DNA of 64,000 nucleotides from Isoetes taiwanensis. Lineage: Eukaryota > Streptophyta > Lycopodiopsida > Isoetales > Isoetaceae. The stretch lies in contig JAJEKV010000049.1 in the NCBI GenBank assembly GCA_021234155.1, forward strand, positions 8,216,036 to 8,280,035. The letters run 5' to 3'. The translations under genes and the position numbers were made by a program. The notes beneath the pieces are model-generated. The model saw nothing but the letters and a program-made list of their open reading frames with translations. It was not told the origin of the DNA and ran no database searches. Of the stretch, positions 50,268 to 64,000 are shown piece by piece (position 1 is the stretch's first letter; each line of letters starts with the position of its first letter).

Positions 50268-51500
50268 CGCTTATAGTCATTTATGATTGGAGGCGCGTAT
50301 GATTTTGAAATATGAAATATGATTTCGTCTAAGGTTTTAAGGGAATATCGAACCTCTATACAACTTTCCTTAAGATTTTAGAATATAAAATACGAGGGTT
50401 TGAACCTCTACCAAAATAACTCAGTGTCCTAATCAGACTACTTTAACCAATGTACCCAGTGAACTAATGTGATTATTTTTTATCTTGAATCTATATTTTT
50501 TTTTTTTTTTATAACAACCCATTCAATGGTTTTAGGGATATATGGTCTATAGTTTCAGGAATTGTTATTTTTACATCCATATCAAATCCCCCTGGAACCC
50601 CCTGTTATTTTTCTACATATTTCTAAACGAGGTGCACCCTGGACTATCACAGTCGTCGAATTCGTCGATCCTACGACCCAGATCGTATGTTGGGGCCTCT
50701 GGTCACCTCTCGTTTTGCTTATATAGTCATTTATGATTGAAGGCGCGTATGATTTTGAAATATGAAATACGATTCCACCTAAGGTTTTGAGGGAATATCG
50801 AACCTCTATATAGCTTTGCTTAAGATTTTAGAATATGAAATATAGGGGCTTGAACCTCTACCAAAACAACTCAATGTCCTAATAAGACTACTTTAACTAA
50901 TGTACCCAGTGAACTAATATGCTTATTTTTTTTATCTTAAATCTATGTTTTTTTTTTTTTAATAACAACCCATTCAATTGTTTTAGGGATATATGGTCCA
51001 TGGTTTCAGGAACTGTTATTTTTACATCCATATCAAATCCCCCTGAATCCCCTGTTATTTTGCTACATATTCTAAATGAGGTGCACCCTGGACTACCACA
51101 GTCATCGGATTCGTCGATCCTACGACCCAGATCATATGTTGGGTCCTCTGGACACCTCTCATTTCGCTTATAGTCAATTATGATTGAAGGCGCGTATGAT
51201 TTTGAAATATGGAATACGATTTCGCCTAAGGTTTTGAGGGAATATTGAACCTCTATACAGCTTTGCTTAAGATTTTAGAATATGAAATACGGGGCTTGAA
51301 CCTCTACCAAAACAACTCAATGTCCTAATAAGACTATTTTAACCAATGTATCTAGTGAACTAATGGGATTATTTTTTATCTTGAATCTATGCTTTTCTCT
51401 TATAACAACCCATTCAATTGTTTTAAATTTCAGGAATTGTTATTTTTACATCCATATCAAATCCCCCTAGAACCCCCTGTTATTTTGCTACATATTTTAG
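50268..51500 (-). repeat. Second tandem array with tRNA-like heads (period ~450 bp)
   Basis: 2.7 head-to-tail units starting near 50,268, 50,719 and 51,168 (TATAGTCATTTATGATTG then GGCGCGTATGATTTTGAAAT). On the minus strand each holds TGGTTAAAGTAG (A-box-like) and, 31 bases on, GGTTCAAACCC (B box). A poly-A run on that strand lies just upstream of the A box (plus-strand T runs at ~50,499 and ~50,949). This family differs from the 32.5-35.0 kb units. No gene lies in this stretch; plus-strand frames at 50,542 and 50,919 are shadows of the repeat. Confidence 0.75.
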
Positions 51501-53439: not shown

Positions 53440-53935
53440 CTAGAACATCACAACGGGTGGGATCTTTACAAGCTAAAGCATCTATAGGTCAAGCAGGCCA
53501 AGCTCCGCATCGGCAACTGCAAGAAGCTTGCTCCAAGATGGGCTGGGCCATTCAGGATAACCAAAAGAGTAGGAAGCCAATCCTACAAGTTGGACCTGCT
53601 AGCACATCTCAAAATCCATAGGGTCTTCCATGTAAGTCTCCTAGGACACACTCCTAATCCAGAGGAAGTATTGGAGACAACCGAGTTACTGGAAATGACG
53701 GACTTACCTGTGGACGGACAAGAAGATCGCAATTTCTCCAATACCTAGTGAAATGGACGCACTTACCTGTGGAAGACGCTACTTGGGTACTACAATCAAA
53801 TTTGGAGAATCAATACCCTCAATTCATGGAGCAATGCAAGGGTCGGCTCGTCACCGAAGTAGTCGACACCGACTCGATAGGTGAGTGGAAGATAGATTAA
53901 AAAGTCTACTTCCGTCCCACGGAAGTAGACGGGAC
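53440..53935 (+). pseudogene. Chromovirus integrase C-terminus and chromodomain fragment (plus strand)
   Basis: Encodes [20 protein letters not shown], then SYKLDLLAHLKIHRVFHVSL and HTPNPEEVLE, matching the last part of the minus-strand element at 56.9-57.4 kb residue for residue with few changes. A decayed chromodomain follows (stops at ~53,750 and ~53,845). It ends with a perfect hairpin, 53,911-53,937, then LINE sequence. A truncated copy of the same family in opposite orientation. Confidence 0.85.
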
Positions 53936-53937: not shown

Positions 53938-54539
53938 TCGCGAGGAGAAGGACCGCCAGTCTCGTTGACTGAACATTATCGTTCGCGGCTTGCCTGAAGA
54001 ACAGGGGGAAGATCTCCCAGCTAAGCTCCATGCCCTGGTTTTGGCAAGGCTCCAATTGCAGCACTTGATAGTAAGAAACCCGACCAGAGTCGGAGGGCCA
54101 AGCATGAGACCTTAAACTCACAGTGCTCGACCAAGCGTCGAAGACGTTGATGCTGCAGCGCGCTAGTCGCTTGAAGGGGACATCGGTGTACTTAGACACG
54201 GATCTGACCCCGGCTCAACAGAAGGAGAGGCAGGAGGAGTTCGCAAAGATTAGACAGGTCAGGCAGGCAGGGGGATCGGCAGGCTTGGTGAATGGCAAGA
54301 TGAAGGTGTTTGTGCCTCCACGGCCAACAGTGGCAGAAGCGGCGACTGGGGGACCAAGCACTTCTGGATCCCCCACTTCCAGAATGGCGGATTGCACACA
54401 GCAGCCAGGACCAAGTAACCGGGCACCACCCACAGCAGCAGAGCCGGACGTGAGAGCCCCAGCATGTGACGTCCCCTACTCGTATACGGTGCACTCACCA
54501 TATACAAACAGGAGTTCATCCCCCATACCAGCTCCATAC
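53938..54539 (+). pseudogene. LINE ORF1 fragment (RRM-like and C-terminal domain)
   Basis: ORF1 of a LINE related to the one at 14.3 kb. It reads NIIVRGLPEEQGEDL (RRM-like strand, ~53,975-54,020) and HLIVRNPTRVGG. Then from 54,123 comes an open frame with LKGTSVYLDTDLTPAQQKER and AGLVNGKMKVFV, the conserved C-terminal part of such ORF1 proteins, and a Pro/Ser-rich tail. It stops being LINE-like at 54,540, where an LTR begins. No ORF2 follows. Confidence 0.7.
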
Positions 54540-56031
54540 TGATACAGGGCCCTCCACAATCACTGCACCCGTAACGAGTCTCAGTGGGAAGAGTGAAGGG
54601 GTCATTTTACCCCGTCTCCCTCAGGGCCTACCTAGCTGCGGAAGCGTAAACATACATGTCAGTATACAACATAATCACATATCCACCTCGAAGGGTGGTG
54701 CATCAACATCTGCATAGACAATGATCAGCATCATACATAGGGATCCTACCCAAGGCTCAGACTCGAAGGGGTGACTGACGGCTTGGGTCTCCAGAGTTCA
54801 TTGCAGACAGAATTCATGGCAATGGATTTGGCTAGCATAAGAACATGGCATAGGGTTGTCCACTCCATCCGCCCCTCCTGTGCACACTTTGCAGAGTAGG
54901 TTGAAAAGTGTTGGGACCTGACTGTAGCCCGCCGGATGCATAGCCAAAAGGGCTATTCCTGGGTTGCATCTCCCCAGTTCCGATGGGGCAGGTAGGGATC
55001 ACTCCCTCCAGAGGTCTACATGCTGACTCAAGGTGACTAGAGGGCCACTGCCCTTATTCGACTGAACCCACTGGAAAGTGTACACCACCTCACGGGTGTC
55101 GAGCCCATGCCTTACCCGCACTCGGTGGTAAGCCATTAGATCTAGTCACAATGAACCCCGGTAGGCCTTACACACCAGAGGGATCGTTCAAGAGTCAGAA
55201 CACGAACCTCCTTCTTAGCCAGTCTGGCCCCTTCACCCACAACCAGGTGTGGTTCTTGTACACAGGCCGAAACTACAGTGTGCTAGAGAGGCTAATCTAG
55301 GAGCATCTACTACCAAGCTTGAGGTCTATACCCCCCTTCCCAATACAAGGAGCTCACAGATATACATCATCCATATACATCACAGAGAGCTAAAAAACTA
55401 GATCTAATCATAGAGTTAGGTTCTTTAGTTAGAGTCTGGTATCTAGAGATCTAGAGGGCTGCTATGGGCAATTTAATAGGCTAAGCCTACTGATTCTATG
55501 ACTGAGGGATGGTTTAAGCTATTGAATTGCCTAAATACCTGATCCTTGAGTTGCTCCTCCTGACCTGAGTTCGACCATCCTGCTGAACTGCTCGAATCAA
55601 GGGAAACTAATGGTGCAATTCGCTTAGACAGCTTTTGGGAGGCGGTTTTGGCTACTGGGGCAGCCAAAACAGAGCTCTAAAACCCTAGGAACGAAAATGG
55701 CTAAATTAGGGTTTCTCCTACCTAAATAGACAAGGGGTTAGGCTAGGGTTTCCAATTATTCCTTTAGGCATGTGGGATAATTGGGAATGGGCCCACTTGC
55801 CTTTAATGGCTAGGTGGCAAAATGTGCCCACATGGAAAGGTGTGCACCTTAATAAATGTGCACATTGGTAAATGTGCACATTAATAATAAATGCACATAC
55901 CTAGCAAGTTGCCCCCTAGGGGCTACCCACCTGGCTACACGTCGGCGTACACGTCAGTCGGAGTGGCGTGTACGCGTGACGAGGCAATACGGTATACGTT
56001 CTAGTACCGTATACTGTGCTGGAACGTCACA
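54540..56031 (-). mobile_element. 3' LTR of the minus-strand chromovirus
   Basis: On the minus strand it starts TGTGACGTTCCAGCAC (56,031 downwards) and ends CCCTGTATCA (54,540), the TG...CA form. It is preceded by the polypurine tract. Length ~1.49 kb. It lies inside LINE ORF1 sequence, so the element inserted into that LINE. The partner LTR is outside the window. The short coding frames in it are not convincing. Confidence 0.75.
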
Positions 56032-56903: not shown

Positions 56904-58289
56904 TTAATCTACACAAATCGACATACCTGAGCCGATTTCTTCGGAGATGACTTTGCCATCCCATTGCTCCATGAACTGTAGGTACTGCTTTACTAGATCT
57001 TTCTTAAGTACCCATGTCGCGTCTTCCACTGGCAAGTGTTTCCACTTGACCAAGTATTGGAGAAACTCTGATCTCCTCGTTTTCTTGAAGGCTTTATCAA
57101 GAATCAACTCTGGAACTATTTCCAGCTGCTCCTCCGTCATTTCCAACAATGTTGGAGTGTCCAAGACTTCGTCTGGATTTGGAGTGTGCTTCTTCAACAA
57201 ACTCACGTGGAAGACCTTATGAATCTTTAGGTGCGCTGGCAAGTCTAGTTTGTAGGATTGATTACCTACTCTCTTGACTATTCTGAAAGGTCCAGCCCAC
57301 CTTGGAGCAAGCTTCTTACAATTTTCGATGCGGAGCTTCGCCTGCTTCACCTTGATCTTGAGCCATACATCATCTCCAACTTGGAACTCTCTGACTGTTC
57401 GATGCTTGTCGGCGATGCTTTTTTGTCGACTCCTTGCTGCTAGAAGATACCCTCGAACTTCTTCCACGAACTGTTGCATGTCGGACAACATCTGCTGCGA
57501 AACCTCTACTTTTGACACGGGATTGTGCCAAGTGTCTGGAGTTAGGCATTGATAGCCGTAATTAATCATAAACGGCGACATTTGGGATGATTCTTGCTTG
57601 GTGCTATTGTAGGCAAACTCCACCAAGTGAATAAATTCTTCCCACATACCTTGCTTATTCCAGACATAGTTCCATAGCATGTCCTCCAAAATCCTGTTGG
57701 TCCGCTCCGTTTGGCCATCTGTCTGAGGATGATACGCTGTGCTCATGGATAGCTTCGTCTGAATGGTCGCAAAGAGGTCTTGCCAAAAGGCACTCATAAA
57801 CTTCGGATCCCTGTCGGAGATAATCTCCCTTGGCATGCCATGAAGCCTGAAGATCTCTTTGGTGAAGAGCTTCGCTGTATCCATAGCCGTATCTGTGGTC
57901 CTGCAAGGCACAAAATGTGCCATCTTCGACAACTTGTCGACCACTACCATCAAAGCATCCTTCCCTCTTACTGTCCTTGGAAGCCTTGTGATGAAATCCA
58001 TGCTGATCACCTCCCACTTAGCGTTTGGCACCGCTAATGGCTCTAATGCCCCTGGAATTCGAAGCTGCTCTGCCTTCGTCTGCTGACATAGTTGACATTC
58101 CTTGATGTAGCGAGCTACCTGCTTCTTCATTCCTGGCCAATAGTAGCTGCTGTGCACTTTGAAATATGTTTTTATGAATCCCGCATAGCCAGCTATTGGG
58201 CTGTTGTACGTGTCGTGGAGGATCAATTTCCTTACACCTGATGATTCGGGTATGCACAACTTGTTCTTATGGTATAACAGGTTGCCCAT
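56904..58289 (-). CDS. Chromovirus integrase with C-terminal chromodomain
   Basis: A 461-codon open frame. The order is: zinc-binding region ([20 protein letters not shown] ... CQLCQQ; the second zinc His is Tyr here), integrase core with [24 protein letters not shown] and [18 protein letters not shown] (the DD35E Asp, Asp and Glu). Then come the GPY/F-type region ([20 protein letters not shown]) and [15 protein letters not shown]. From residue ~375 there is a chromodomain: [27 protein letters not shown]. Chromodomains bind modified histone tails and steer integration to heterochromatin. Upstream the frame joins reverse-transcriptase sequence with RT motif C and RNase H deleted, so the element cannot be autonomous. 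This is the longest intact frame in the window. Confidence 0.92.
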
Positions 58290-58797
58290 ACCGCGTTCTG
58301 AAGGCGGTTTTATGGATATCTTCTTCCTTTATCCGGATCTGATGATAACCTGACCTTAAATCGATTTTGGAGAAGACCTTTGCACCTTGAAGCTGATCCA
58401 TCAAGTCATCTGATCTGGGGAGCGCATACTTGTTCTTGATGGTGTGCTTGTTCAACTGCCTATAGTCTATGCACATCCTCAAGCTGCCATCCTTCTTCTT
58501 GACAAAAAGAATAGGCGCTCCAAACGGCGAGACGCTAGGCCTAATGAAGCCTAGGTCGAGCAACTCCTGCAATTGCTTCTTTAGTTCCGTTAACTCCTGC
58601 GTCGTCATTCTGTATGAAGCCTTACTTGTCGGCTTTGTTCCTGGTTCGAGTGCTATCTCACACTCGACTCCCCTATAAGGAGGGAGCTGCTTGATCTCAT
58701 CTGGAAAAAGAACATGGAACTCCATGATCAAGTTAGCTACCTGCTTAGGTAACTTGCTGAGCCCCTCATCCTCCTTACCTTCTTCTGGCTCAGGCTC
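58290..58797 (-). pseudogene. Chromovirus reverse transcriptase, N-terminal part
   Basis: Continues protease on the minus strand. [66 protein letters not shown] and [13 protein letters not shown] are the fingers/palm with motif A (its Asp in KIDL). Just after FRTRYG the sequence jumps to the region before the integrase; motifs B and C and RNase H are missing. The jump also shifts the frame. Confidence 0.9.
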
Positions 58798-59511
58798 TTA
58801 GATCTCAAGCTTGAAGATATAAGCTACCTGCTCACTCTTTATGCACTTGAGCATCCGTTTAGAAGACATACACTGCATGATGGGAACAACTTCTTTACCT
58901 GTGATCTCAATGATCTTGCCGTCGGGCGTTGGGAAGGTCACCTTCCGCTTCCCACAATCGATGATGGTCCCTGCTGGTCCAAGATACTCCATTCCTATGA
59001 TCAGGTCATACTTGCCAATGCCCATTATTTCTGCCCCCATCTGGATATTAATCCCTGACAAGTCGATGTCGAAATTAATTCTCTTGCCTGCCGTCTGCCT
59101 TACTGCTCCACTTGCTAAGACAACGGGTCTTGGCTTCGACTTTAATGGTTTCAACTTCAACATTTCAACCATTCTGGGGGATGCAAAGTTATGGCTACTT
59201 CCTGAGTCTATCAGGACTATGAAGGACTTGGTCTTGGCCTTCCCTACTGTGGAAATTACTTTATACTGGCTCTCTGCTTGCTCTGTATCTATTGCGGCAA
59301 AGATATGACACTCACCCTGAATGTAGTCGCGGGCTGCCTCGCCGTCGTCGTCAGACAGAGAGTCCCAATCTCCCAACTCCGCTAGTGCTGCACTCATGAC
59401 GTAGGGGCAGTTCGCTGTCCGATGACCTGGCTGGAAACACCTGAAGCAAAGCTGCTTTTCTATGCACTCCTGCCTCTTTTCCTTGGGCATAGCCTGCAAA
59501 AAGGACCGCAC
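58798..59511 (-). pseudogene. Chromovirus nucleocapsid zinc knuckle and protease
   Basis: A 237-codon frame with CFRCFQPGHRTANC (CCHC knuckle of gag, residues ~22-36) and the aspartic protease DSGSSHNFAS (active Asp-Ser-Gly, residue ~103) followed by the flap-region IDLSGINIQMGA and IIGMEYL. It ends at a TAG directly before acidic sequence leading into reverse transcriptase, so protease and RT are separated by one in-frame stop, either a mutation or a read-through site. Confidence 0.88.
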
Positions 59512-60673
59512 TGCTTTGGACTAGTTTGACCCCTCCTGCTTGTCCTTGAAGGACACGTGCTTCTTCTCCTGCTGCTTCCCCTGGTTGCCACCATATGGGG
59601 CTCTAGCTGGGCCTGGGCTGGCTGCCCTAGGGCTATAACTCCATGTTGCCTTACCTTTGTCCTGGTAATACTGCTGCCTCTGCCCGCTATTCTGAGGTCC
59701 TGTTCCTTGCAAACTTATTGCCTTGGACTCTGCTTCAGATACTGTCTTAGGGTTTATTGCCCTTACAAGCTTGCGGATCTCCTCATTCAGCCTCTCAATA
59801 TATATAGCTCTCCACTGCATGCTTTTCACCCAACTTTGGCACATACAGCCTTAGCCTCATGAATTCCTCTGTATATTTTTGGACTGATTTGTTGCCTTGC
59901 TGCTCTGTAGAACTGCTGCATCATGCTGGACTTATGCTCTCGTGGGACGTAGTGGCGCTGAAGGCTTTAGCAAACTTTCTGAACCTGCAAGCATCCCTGC
60001 TCAAGCCATGTGCCTTTGCATACCCTTTCCACCAAATGCGTGCTGCTCCTTTCAGGTTGACTGTTGCCACCCTGCCTTTATCCTTGTCCTTCATACCATA
60101 GGCGTTGCCATATTCGCTCATCTCATCGAGCCAAGCCTCTGCCTCCATGCCTGACCTGTTCTCGCCTGAGAATTGCTCGAGCTTCCTGGCCTTCCAAACA
60201 TTTCCCAATGCAGAGTCTACCTTCTTCTGGTAGTCAGAGGCTCTTGTGTCCCTTTGTCATCCATCTGTGGTGTCCCTCTGCCTTCCATCTGCAGTGACCC
60301 TCTGCCTTGCATCTCTACTGTCCTGAGCCTGCTCTTCCTCTTCCTCGGAGTCGGTGTCTGAGTCCGAGCTTGAGTCGGAGGATTCCGAGCTGGAGGACCT
60401 CCTTCTCTTGCTCCTCTTCTTGTCCCTTCCTGTTTTCTGAGCTGATGCTTGAGGCAACTGAGCGTTGCCCTCCGAACCCACTCCTGCTTGTGCGGCCAGC
60501 AAAGCCTTTATCTGCTCAAGGTTTGTCCTCATCTGTGATATTTCCTCTTCTGGGGTCATGGGTCCAAATTCCTCATACAGGTTCCTTGCCAGGGGTGGCC
60601 TGGGCGGACTCTGTTCTTCCATATGGTCTCGACGTTGTCGTTCTCCTGAGCCTAGGCCTCTAGCTGCATACAC
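59512..60673 (-). pseudogene. Chromovirus gag (three broken frames)
   Basis: Read from 60,673 down: an N-terminal frame (to 60,257) with coiled-coil residues (ISQMRTNLEQIKALLA) and a Ser/Asp/Glu-rich stretch with basic cluster (KKRSKRRRSSSSESS). Then a frame (60,208-59,921) with the capsid motif AEAWLDEMSEY...AARIWWKGYAKAHG. Then (59,844-59,521) a Gln/Gly-rich linker before the zinc knuckle. At least three frameshifts or stops break it (near 60,240, 59,920 and 59,520). Confidence 0.8.
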
Positions 60674-60921: not shown

Positions 60922-62342
60922 CTAAGGACATTGGTTGATGTCCCGCCCTGCAATGCTGTCACCAACTCCTCTACTCTGCGGTCGGAGGTAGGTCGCAGTT
61001 ACTGCCAATCTTCCCTGCTGTCGGTAGGGCACGACGAAGTCGAAGAGGCTCTTCACTAGGACAGCATAGTCGACATTTGCCGCTATTCGAGCATGCTTGC
61101 CGAAGCCTGAGAGTGCAATAAGCATGAACACTCCTTCTTCACCTCGTGGACTGAATTTGCGGTGTATCACCGCTATTCTCCCATCCAGCAGCAGGTGCAG
61201 GTAGTACCTCAGCAACCTGTCGTTGTGTGTCACAGATGATTCCCCACTTGCTTGGCCTCCAGCTCTATGCCGTCCGGCGTACTCGTCGACCTCTACCTCA
61301 GTCAGTTCTCGGTAGTCTGCAATTGTCGAGTCGACTCGCCTGATGTCGATTCCTGCTCCTCTTGCTGGAGGTGGTGTCGAGGGGCTCGGCATCAAGATGC
61401 TAGTGGTCTTGCCTCTGATTCCCATCCGTTCCTGAATGGCGAGGAACTCTTCTTCAGATGGCAATTCTCCGGCCTCCATAACCTGTCTTATGTTGCTGTA
61501 GGCCTGGATGTCGGAAGTCGACTCCCCTGTGTAGGTGTCGGCTTCTCGCACTTGAAGCAGGAAGTCTGAGCCTCCCCGGATGATGAAGTCGTCCAAATCT
61601 GGTTGCTGCCATAATTGGTGCAGCAACTCATCAAGGCGGAGCTCCCTCTCCCTGCATTCGGGGAGATTCTGGATGTCACTGAGGAGTAGGTACTGTTGAT
61701 GATGATGGGGGCTAGGCTTGTGATGCCTAGCCCAAGTGGGGGAGCGACTCTGAGGGTCTGCCGGTTCCGCTCGATGTTGGCCAGCTCCTCCTCTGCTTGC
61801 TGCCGTTCTTCCTCTGAGTCGAGCTCCGTGTACTCTTCGTCGTCCGACTCCTCTTCTTCTTCTCTTCCTTCTTGCTCTTGCTGGTACTGCAAAAGCATCT
61901 GCTCTTCTGCTTGGGCTGCTATGGGGTCCACCTCCATGAGAGGGATAGAGGTTGCCCCCATTGGGTTTTCGGCACGGTGGGATAGGAAAACAGCTAGGGC
62001 GGCGGTGTAGGAGAAATACTTGGTCCTGTCAACTGTCAAGACCATGTAATCTGGTAGCCTCTGCGCCTTGTTGGTCAAGTACATGGCGATATTCGGGACA
62101 TCACCCAAGGCTGCTTGAAGGGATGGGTGGGGGACAAAGTAGCCTATGCAAGGGGGAAGCTGGACGAGGGAGGGTCCTACCCTAGCTTGGAACTCTGCTA
62201 AAACTTGTCTATATGCTGGGGTTGCATTCAGCGTGGCTTGGACATCTATTTCTTTCTCAAAGACTCGGAAGATGTTATTGACATCAGCCTCAGCAGCATG
62301 GGCACTGGCGCTGTACCATCGCCTGAAGTCAGTAGTGGCCAT
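60922..62342 (-). pseudogene. Unrecognised acidic protein (ORF X) upstream of gag
   Basis: Starts MATTDFRRWYSASAHAAEAD at 62,342. One frame runs to about 61,700; the continuation is in another frame from ~61,690 (LLSDIQNLPECRERELRLDE) to the stop at 60,922, so one frameshift near 61,690 breaks a protein of ~460 residues. Residues ~145-185 are very acidic (QEGREEEEESDDEEYTELDS). The rest is mixed, with YFSYTAALAVFLSHRAENP and a C-terminal part with NDRLLRYYLHLLLDGRIAVI. No domain I know. The codon use and length say it was a real gene. Its TATA box lies 115 bases upstream. Same strand as the chromovirus. Confidence 0.6.
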
Positions 62343-62455
62343 TGATCTAGCGAAGAAGAGACTAGCAAACAGATGCAGAAGCGCCTCAGGGAACTGGAAG
62401 ATCGCCTAAGCAGTCGAGAGCAAACTTGTAGGGTGCTAAATGAGAAATGGGGGAC

Positions 62456-62464: not shown

Positions 62465-62657
62465 GAAAAGGGAAAAACCCTAATTTTTGGATGATCTAGA
62501 ATTTACTGGGATTGGGCGATTCTGATCTATTAAGAGGTGCAATTGAGAATTTGAAGACTACTTTTAGGGTTTGAGCATGCTAAGATCAACTAATGAACCT
62601 GTTGCAACAAACTGGGGAGATCATTTGGATATGGCATGGTGAAGAAAATGCTGAGAG

Positions 62658-62724
62658 GTCTCACACGTTGCGCCCAGACCGATAATGAAAAGTTCATTTT
62701 CTGTCCTGGCGCGATGTGTGAGAC
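62658..62724. other. 67-bp hairpin, copy 1
   Basis: Arms GTCTCACACGTTGCGCC and GGCGCGATGTGTGAGAC pair over 17 positions if G-U pairs are allowed. An inner AATGAA...TTCATT pair sits in the loop. A second copy lies 348 bp to the right. Confidence 0.85.
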
Positions 62725-63005
62725 ATGGGCTCTAAATGGGCTGAACTTGGTCAATTTGGGTGATCTAAGGGTCTAATTCTACTGGAGGGTAAAAGCATGA
62801 AAGAGTGAACGTACATTGTACTGAATTGATGTACAAATATGGATACTTTTCACGTACATTTTGGTTATTTTTTATTTGTATAAACATACACTTTTTTATT
62901 TTATGTACTTTGCATATACATTTAAGCTAAATTTCGGATATTTTTTGGCAGAATTGACCCCTTATTTGGTCAATTTGGAGCTGTTTTGGGCGTTTTTGGG
63001 GCATG

Positions 63006-63072
63006 GTCTCACACGTTGCGCCCAGCCCGAAAATGAAAAGTTCATTTTCTGTCCTGACACGACGTGTGAGAC
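63006..63072. other. 67-bp hairpin, copy 2
   Basis: Same 5' arm and inner loop as copy 1. The 3' arm (ACACGACGTGTGAGAC) keeps the outer 11 pairs. Both copies lie between ORF X and the H3-like frame. Confidence 0.85.
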
Positions 63073-63218
63073 ATCGTCTCAATTTTGCTCAAAAAGTCCA
63101 ATTTTTCCAAAACAAAAGCCAGAATTCAATATCTTAACCTAATTAGGCAAGATTAAACATATTATTTAACAAAAAAAAATCCTTTATATTAACAAAATTT
63201 CTGTTATTTACAAAAGGT

Positions 63219-64000
63219 TTAAGGGCGTTCTCCCTTAATGTGCCTAGCAAGATGCATGTCTTGCCTCATGAGTGTGACTCTCTTCGCGTGAACTGTGCAG
63301 GCCGTCGAATCTTCAAAGTGCTGCACCAGTTTCTGCTCATGCTGCCTCCTGTAGGCACAGCAACATTTCGTCGGTCACCCTCATGTCCATGTTGTACTCC
63401 TGGATGACCTCTCGGACTAGGCGCTGGAACGGTGCACGGGGGATCAAAAATCCGTAACTTCGCTGGAAGTGCCGGATTTCCTTGAGGGCTCTCTGCTCCA
63501 TCTGCTTCCTGCCTGTCCGCTTCTTCCCTGGCGCTCTAGGAGGCTTGGGCTTTGGTGGTGGCGGCCTTAGTGTCTGGCTCTTTGTCGGACGTCCGCCCTC
63601 GATAGTCCGTACCCTGTTCTCCTGATAGTATGCGTTATATGCTTCCCACTTCGCCATGAAGGCGTTATGTTCCTTCATCTTCTTTTGATAGACCTTTACG
63701 GGGTCTATCACATACGCCTCCCATTGTGGCCGCCGGCCTTTGTTCCTATCCCACATTGGGTAGGGTGGGGGCTTCGGTGCCTGCCCGGGCTGCTTCTGCT
63801 CGGGTGCTACCTGCTCCGGTACTACCTGCTCCACAACCGGGGGTTTTGAAGAGCTTGCCTCCTCAGTGTTGGGGACGTAATCTTCATCGGAGTCGTCAGT
63901 GGAGGGCGGGGTCTGGTCGCCTGAGGGTTCGTTAATAACTACACCTTTTCCCCGCTTAACTTGCACGACTCTTCTTTTCCCCACCTTCTTGCCCTTTGCC
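63219..64000 (-). pseudogene. Histone H3-fold protein with long novel N-terminal tail
   Basis: The frame is open from the right window edge to a TGA at 63,337. The tail (~165 residues) is Pro/Lys/Glu-rich with AYNAYYQEN and lacks the canonical H3 tail. A histone fold follows: RALKEIRHFQRSYGFLIPRA (alpha-N), PFQRLVREVIQEYNMDMR (alpha-1, loop 1), [11 protein letters not shown] (alpha-2). One extra base then shifts the frame. The remaining H3 C-terminus is readable in the new frame ([33 protein letters not shown]) to a TAA at 63,219-63,221. PFQRLVRE, LQEAA, FED, HAKRVT and LAR.I.GER are hallmark H3 residues. Loop 1 has the H3 length, without the CENH3 insertion, but VTLM is CENH3-like. It lies upstream of a chromovirus gag on the same strand. 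Broken by one base here; an intact relative probably exists. Confidence 0.88.

Follow-up and report, generated by a model that had tools for sequence, protein, structure and literature searches.

Silencing of retroelements works largely through marks on the tail of histone H3, and such marks are regarded as targets of chromoviruses. Retroelements pick up host genes, and giant viruses and bracoviruses encode viral histones. The closest described systems to the elements analysed here are the plant Ty3/gypsy chromoviruses (Tekay, Galadriel, Reina, CRM and Tcn1 clades), with which they share the order of LTR, primer-binding site (PBS), gag, protease, reverse transcriptase (RT), RNase H and integrase, the 5-bp target duplication and, as seen in the window copy, a chromodomain after the integrase. 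The H3 elements differ in having two additional genes ahead of gag, one of which ends in an H3 fold. In the accessible part of PMC6317226, the terms 'additional ORF' and 'upstream of gag' are absent, and 'histone' occurs once, in connection with chromodomains. No H3-coding retrotransposon is described in the titles and abstracts of the literature searched (preprints and most subscription papers lay outside this search), and a chromovirus with two extra genes before gag, one of them with a predicted H3 fold, appears to have no earlier description there.

The window, a stretch of 64,000 nucleotides of Isoetes taiwanensis DNA (contig JAJEKV010000049.1; C1055:8,216,036-8,280,035), contains one copy of such an element on its minus strand. 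The features of this copy, in their order along that strand, are an H3-fusion frame, an ORF2 relic, gag, protease, the first half of RT, integrase with a chromodomain, a G-rich tract and a 3' LTR.

63340..64000, minus strand: H3-fusion frame, 5' part (Pfam Histone PF00125, E=1.8e-12, 48 bits with a cut-off of 26.4; profile of element H3 frames, E=5.5e-16)
63219..63374, minus strand: last third of the H3 fold, in a different frame (profile of related element H3 frames, E=1.9e-11 for the piece alone)
60922..62405, minus strand: ORF2 relic, in two overlapping frames, 61,488-62,405 and 60,922-62,028 (matches to the ORF2 profile)
59611..60328, minus strand: gag (tblastn, 45-47% identity to the gag of the C1019 copy, L018)
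58798..59520, minus strand: aspartyl protease (RVP_2, E=2.4e-10) and a weak zinc knuckle (zf-CCHC_2, E=0.0056, below its cut-off)
58267..58797, minus strand: reverse transcriptase, first half only (RVT_1, E=4.2e-13, profile positions 1-97 of 205)
56904..58328, minus strand: integrase (zinc-binding, core and SH3-like domains) with a C-terminal chromodomain (Integrase_H2C2, E=3.1e-16; rve, E=1.1e-9; SH3_Tf2-1, E=4.5e-22; Chromo, E=7.3e-9)
54465..56031, minus strand: 3' LTR, preceded by a G-rich (polypurine-tract-like) tract (LTR start and alignment; far end from alignment only)

A sequence-only reading of the window had claimed an unmistakable H3 fold on the minus strand. The fold is recognised by Pfam (frame 63,337-63,999), but it is split over two frames and not contained in one. 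In the 5' part of the fusion frame, the first two thirds of the fold (about 63,340-63,495) come after a non-histone region, and a stop at 63,337-63,339 closes this part after the 'LQEAA' stretch. The second-frame piece terminates at 63,219-63,221. In the flanking genomic sequence the fusion frame extends past the window edge to about 64,125, the whole span being 63,219-64,125 on the minus strand. The same reading had placed a chromovirus gag-pol on the strand of the H3 frame and a 3' LTR at 54.5-56.0 kb, and both are found there. The LTR starts with TGTGACGTTCCA at 56,031, directly after the G-rich tract, and these 12 bases are identical to those that open the LTRs of other H3 elements, including the C1019 copy. 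Its far end, near 54,465, was placed by aligning the last 547 bases with the LTR end of L018 (64% over 614 columns). The 5' LTR expected beyond 64 kb was not found up to about 82 kb, roughly 18 kb upstream of the window's end.

The RT match stops at position 97 of 205 and gives way directly to the integrase frame, so the remainder of RT and the RNase H are missing. With a split H3 fold and a truncated RT, the window copy is therefore a defective chromovirus. The ORF2 profile matches the window frame 60,925-62,028 with E=2.1e-7 and the frame 61,488-62,405 more weakly (hhalign probability 60%, E=8.8e-5; hmmsearch E=4.7). The relic ties the window copy to the H3-element family.

Several other features were observed in and around the window. 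In the interval from the ORF2 relic to the H3 frame, a stretch of 76 bases with nearly inverted ends is present at both 62,657-62,732 and 63,005-63,080, the two copies being 348 bases apart and 91% alike; it may be a small mobile element. At 50,272-51,496, a unit about 450 bases long is repeated three times in tandem, and a related stretch lies on the same strand on the other side of the element, at about 65,770-66,124. The plus strand carries an integrase and chromodomain fragment at 53,472-53,836, with 77-78% identity to 56,962-57,363 of the minus strand, which looks like a second chromovirus piece in the opposite orientation. Beyond the window, a further LTR (L011:9,013-9,519, about 81,013-81,519 in window numbering) is 64% like the LTR end at 54,464-54,936 and runs in the opposite direction. 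The flank there also has open frames at L011:6,670-8,037 (456 aa) and L011:90-629 (180 aa).

The genome searched for relatives comprises 1,658,258,908 bases in 1,110 contigs. A six-frame histone search gave 8,705 first-look candidates, the best 150 of which were scored, all above the Pfam cut-off. The 15 best of these span profile positions 2-122, like full-length H3, and the eight examined are canonical 136-residue H3. The open frames of the remaining 135 matches are 108 to 494 aa long. From these non-canonical loci, nine were fetched, 10 kb each. All nine have an N-terminal domain of about 200 residues ahead of the H3 fold, eight have an LTR on the same strand with its end 613-724 nt upstream (the exception is L014), and gag lies inside the fetched piece in six. 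ORF2 follows the fold in eight; the sequence-only reading had proposed to check whether this frame, its ORF X, is regularly present, and it is found in these eight loci at the equivalent place but not in the ninth (L018, the bounded C1019 copy). The usual order of the element is LTR, PBS, a frame composed of the orphan domain, a linker and the H3 fold, ORF2, gag-pol and LTR.

The C1019 copy (L018) is bounded on both sides. It consists of CAATC, an LTR of 1,684 bases, a PBS that we take to be of the initiator-Met type, a leader of about 720 bases, a 453-aa H3 frame, gag-pol, the 3' LTR and again CAATC, the 5-bp target duplication. The LTRs have the ends TGTGACG...CGTCACA, and the two differ by a K2P distance of 0.0455 over 1,656 sites. 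Gag, protease, RT, RNase H and integrase are in the gypsy order, and the H3 frame matches the Pfam histone profile with E=2e-43 (E=3.3e-42 for the frame of L019). With these boundaries and the target duplication, the copy was therefore inserted as one unit, with the H3 gene inside the element. By every feature tested, the H3-bearing element is a chromovirus, with the chromodomain seen in the window copy.

The association of the H3 frame with the other parts of the element is regular. Among the best-scored 150 N-terminal matches, 47 have a scored H3 855-1,061 nt downstream and none has one upstream; 37 of the 150 are in stop-free frames of at least 440 aa. Scored H3 is found upstream within 12 kb in 11 of the 51 gag-pol matches on the scored list (at 2.80-2.98 kb in nine of the 11) and downstream in none, and 16 of the 51 have a scored H3 or N-terminal domain. 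As the scored lists contain the best-scored matches only, random samples were drawn from the remaining matches. Twelve of the 103 other N-terminal matches were sampled in this way, and ten have the H3 fold (not L044 and L052). The gag-pol sample consists of 12 of the 35 other matches, drawn from those with no scored upstream match. Here the H3 fold is found upstream in seven copies; H3, the N-terminal domain or ORF2 in ten; and none of these within 4.8 kb in two (L053 and L060). The random sampling includes L051, with a fold that is only 39% identical, and L063, with a fold that covers residues 28-97. A deletion form without the fold, L064, has the LTR, PBS, leader and first 89 residues, followed by ORF2. 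These counts make H3 the usual state of the family, and they show that copies that lost it exist. They agree with the suggestion of the sequence-only reading that the element captured an H3 gene and swapped its tail, as H3 is regularly located between LTR and gag in other copies.

Each of the folds of L018, L019 and L057 shares 86% identity with host H3, as compared to 57-58% with Arabidopsis CENH3. In a tree of the fold (45 of 52 rows, with identical rows collapsed), 24 element folds share one side of a branch supported at 97/99, next to host H3. This suggests a single capture, from a canonical or H3.3-type gene, for the folds of the main family. A kinship with CENH3 is not supported for them.

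On the other hand, the H3 piece of the window has 47% identity to host H3, 47% to Arabidopsis CENH3 and 57% to the public protein P0004. In the tree it groups with the public proteins P0001, P0003, P0004 and P0016 (91/100), on a long branch outside the element group, and it may come from an old sister lineage or from a second capture. A profile search of its N-terminal part gave no match to the N-terminal part of the other elements. This unlike N-terminal part, the grouping of the fold with public proteins and the lack of a 5' LTR up to about 82 kb would all be in keeping with an H3 frame that is a chance neighbour, namely an old host-type H3 beside a chromovirus, or that was captured separately. 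We nevertheless consider this unlikely. H3, the ORF2 relic, gag, pol and an LTR of the same type follow each other on one strand as they do in other copies, and a pure chance neighbour is therefore improbable.

The equal distance of the window piece from H3 and CENH3, together with the earlier reading of the fold, could also point to a variant or centromeric histone gene of the host, which would be expected at one or a few loci. Instead, 135 of the 150 scored matches lie beyond the 15 full-length ones, and all nine that were fetched carry the N-terminal domain of the element. The loci are many and dispersed, with LTRs and, in one case, a target duplication, and the main-family fold is far closer to H3 than to CENH3. 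Such a host gene is thus a most improbable explanation. For the main family, a host variant histone gene is ruled out by the bounded C1019 insertion.

The best solved relative of the fold is an H3.3 chain (7ux9_E, E=1.5e-51). The match starts at residue 28 of this chain, so that nothing recognisable corresponds to K4, K9 and K27. Arg stands in place of K36 in 18 of 19 frames. A GGK motif is present in the linker in 16 of 19 frames, where the alignment is ambiguous, and this motif might be a relic of the tail. For the sites that we take to form the H3-H3' interface, Asp106, Cys110, His113, Ala114, Arg116, Asp123, Leu126, Ala127 and Ile130 are retained in 18-19 of the 19 frames. Seventeen of the 20 listed positions presumed to contact DNA are kept in 17-19 of 19 frames, and the changed ones are Tyr41 (kept in 6/19), Lys64 (2/19, mostly Arg) and Ser86 (0/19). 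Lys56, Lys79 and Lys122 are kept in all 19. The substitutions found in most frames include L60P, K64R, S86A, S87F, G102E, F104L, E105S, T107A and I124L, as well as the last two residues.

Purifying selection on the fold has been strong. For 19 frames, the median pairwise dN/dS is 0.106 in the N-terminal domain, 0.213 in the linker and 0.046 in the fold (75, 102 and 120 pairs kept, of 171). These are 19 of 24 frames, with L012, L036, L023, L038 and L059 omitted as partial or near-identical. Twenty-three elements, each taken together with the RT of its own copy, gave medians of 0.125 for the N-terminal domain, 0.054 for the fold and 0.037 for RT (48 of 190, 82 of 253 and 245 of 253 pairs kept, respectively). 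The ratios were obtained by Nei-Gojobori counting; the pairs are non-independent, and saturated pairs were dropped (those with dS of 0.02-1.5 were kept). The frames were mostly chosen for openness, and 17 of the 20 loci fetched as open keep the whole fold in frame (not L030, L034 and L037). Between subfamilies, dN of the fold is 0.10-0.12 while synonymous sites are saturated. Constraint on the H3 fold is similar to that on RT within the spread. The plain reading of these ratios, a check that the sequence-only reading had proposed for intact copies, is selection on the protein during continued copying of the element.

The known capture of host genes by retroelements, and the copies that lack the fold, could also fit a transduced host gene that is not used and was multiplied by hitch-hiking. 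A fold dN/dS of about 0.05, as low as the 0.04 of RT within the spread, the low dN between subfamilies at saturated synonymous sites and the stop-free frames of at least 440 aa in 37 of the best-scored 150 N-terminal matches are against such a passenger, and it is very unlikely.

The H3 module and pol have not always travelled together, as their histories disagree. Synonymous distances of the N-terminal domain and the fold are correlated with r=0.79 (190 pairs), as compared to r=0.21 for the fold and RT (253 pairs) and r=0.36 for the N-terminal domain and RT. Between e938 and e1019, RT has a dS of 0.216 and the fold is saturated; between e1030 and e1019, dS is 0.032 for the N-terminal domain and 0.516 for RT. 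The 5' accessory module and pol thus were exchanged between lineages, as template switching would produce.

About 350 residues precede the H3 fold, formed by the orphan N-terminal domain and a Q-rich linker. A sequence search with the N-terminal domain found no relative, and a fold search gave no match of weight. An AlphaFold model from a shallow alignment predicts this domain with pLDDT mostly of 68-89 over residues 10-225, with a dip to about 55 at 110-130; in the same model the H3 region has a predicted pLDDT of only about 33-51. For ORF2 (about 470 aa), no known relative was found and no usable model was obtained.

The explanation we favour is that a lineage of Ty3/gypsy chromoviruses long ago captured a canonical or H3.3-type gene and retains H3 as its first gene, which is probable. 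In its sequence, the histone tail is exchanged for the orphan domain and the Q-rich linker. With the interfaces of nucleosomal H3 kept and the tail dropped, the fusion is most likely deposited in chromatin with host H4; retained interfaces in a protein that lacks the tail are what would be expected if it enters nucleosomes and yet is not written or read as H3. Its pairing with host H4 and entry into nucleosomes as an H3 variant are accordingly the readings to which these residues probably point. Several points speak against the explanation. Five of the 12 sampled gag-pol copies lack the H3 fold, two of them (L053 and L060) having no accessory gene in 4.8 kb, and L064 has lost it. ORF2 is missing from the bounded C1019 copy, the histories of H3 and RT are discordant, three of the 20 DNA-contact positions are changed, and the H3 region has a low pLDDT in the AlphaFold model. 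The identity of the window H3 to host H3 is only 47%.

The main rival to nucleosome entry is import by the H3-H4 pathway. Histone chaperones and importins of the Asf1 and Importin-4 type handle the import of H3-H4, and the H3 part could serve as a passport, by which the fusion binds H4 and these host proteins, so that Gag or the pre-integration complex enters the nucleus with it; alternatively, it could coat the cDNA. Chaperone binding would keep identical interfaces, the H3 frame comes directly after the leader as the first in the element, and the long N-terminal part offers a possible binding site for Gag or integrase. But the retention of the DNA contacts (17 of 20 positions) goes beyond the faces for chaperones and H4. 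We regard such a passport as a minority possibility, although one of some weight.

If the fusion does enter nucleosomes, these would lack K9 and K27, and the orphan domain would be displayed in place of the tail. The benefit to the element is a more tentative matter. Its copies might resist silencing by escaping K9/K27 methylation, which is conceivable but doubtful; with similar reserve, the element H3 might be a docking site for the integrase complex and a beacon for integration. In host chromatin it would possibly be free of K9/K27 methylation and be an address for the element's own integrase complex, perhaps through the group II-like chromodomain, and this too is a tentative proposal. The partner of the group II-like chromodomain is not yet identified, according to the accessible part of PMC6317226.

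By supplying a tail-less H3, the element would act directly on the substrate that silencing and targeting use. This H3 would also be a natural tail-swap H3 under long selection, and as such a tool for asking what the H3 tail does. In the I. taiwanensis repeat library, repeats with a BLASTx match to plant proteins were taken out (PMC8566536, accessible part), a removal that would have hidden H3-bearing elements from annotation. Elements of this type can thus vanish from repeat annotation. The word 'histone' is absent from the main texts of two Isoetes genome papers (PMC8566536 and PMC10541799).

Compared to host canonical H3 or H3.3, the element protein has the same fold from residue 38 on, with 86% identity. 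It differs in lacking a recognisable counterpart of the tail, up to about residue 27, and in the roughly 350 residues located before the fold. The histones of giant viruses and bracoviruses are, like the element H3, core histones encoded by a selfish element, but their carriers are DNA viruses and not retroelements. Among public proteins, P0026, P0036, P0011, P0070 and P0001 represent several kinds of long H3 fusion. P0026 has a start like an intact H3 tail (MARTKQTARK), about 240 other residues and then the H3 fold. The public fusions (for example P0001, P0026 and P0070) share with the element proteins a C-terminal H3 fold behind a long non-histone part, and they have several diverged members. 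In comparison, their alignment to the element proteins and to the window frame is restricted to the fold. Together they hint that long H3 fusions may not be confined to the family of H3 elements.
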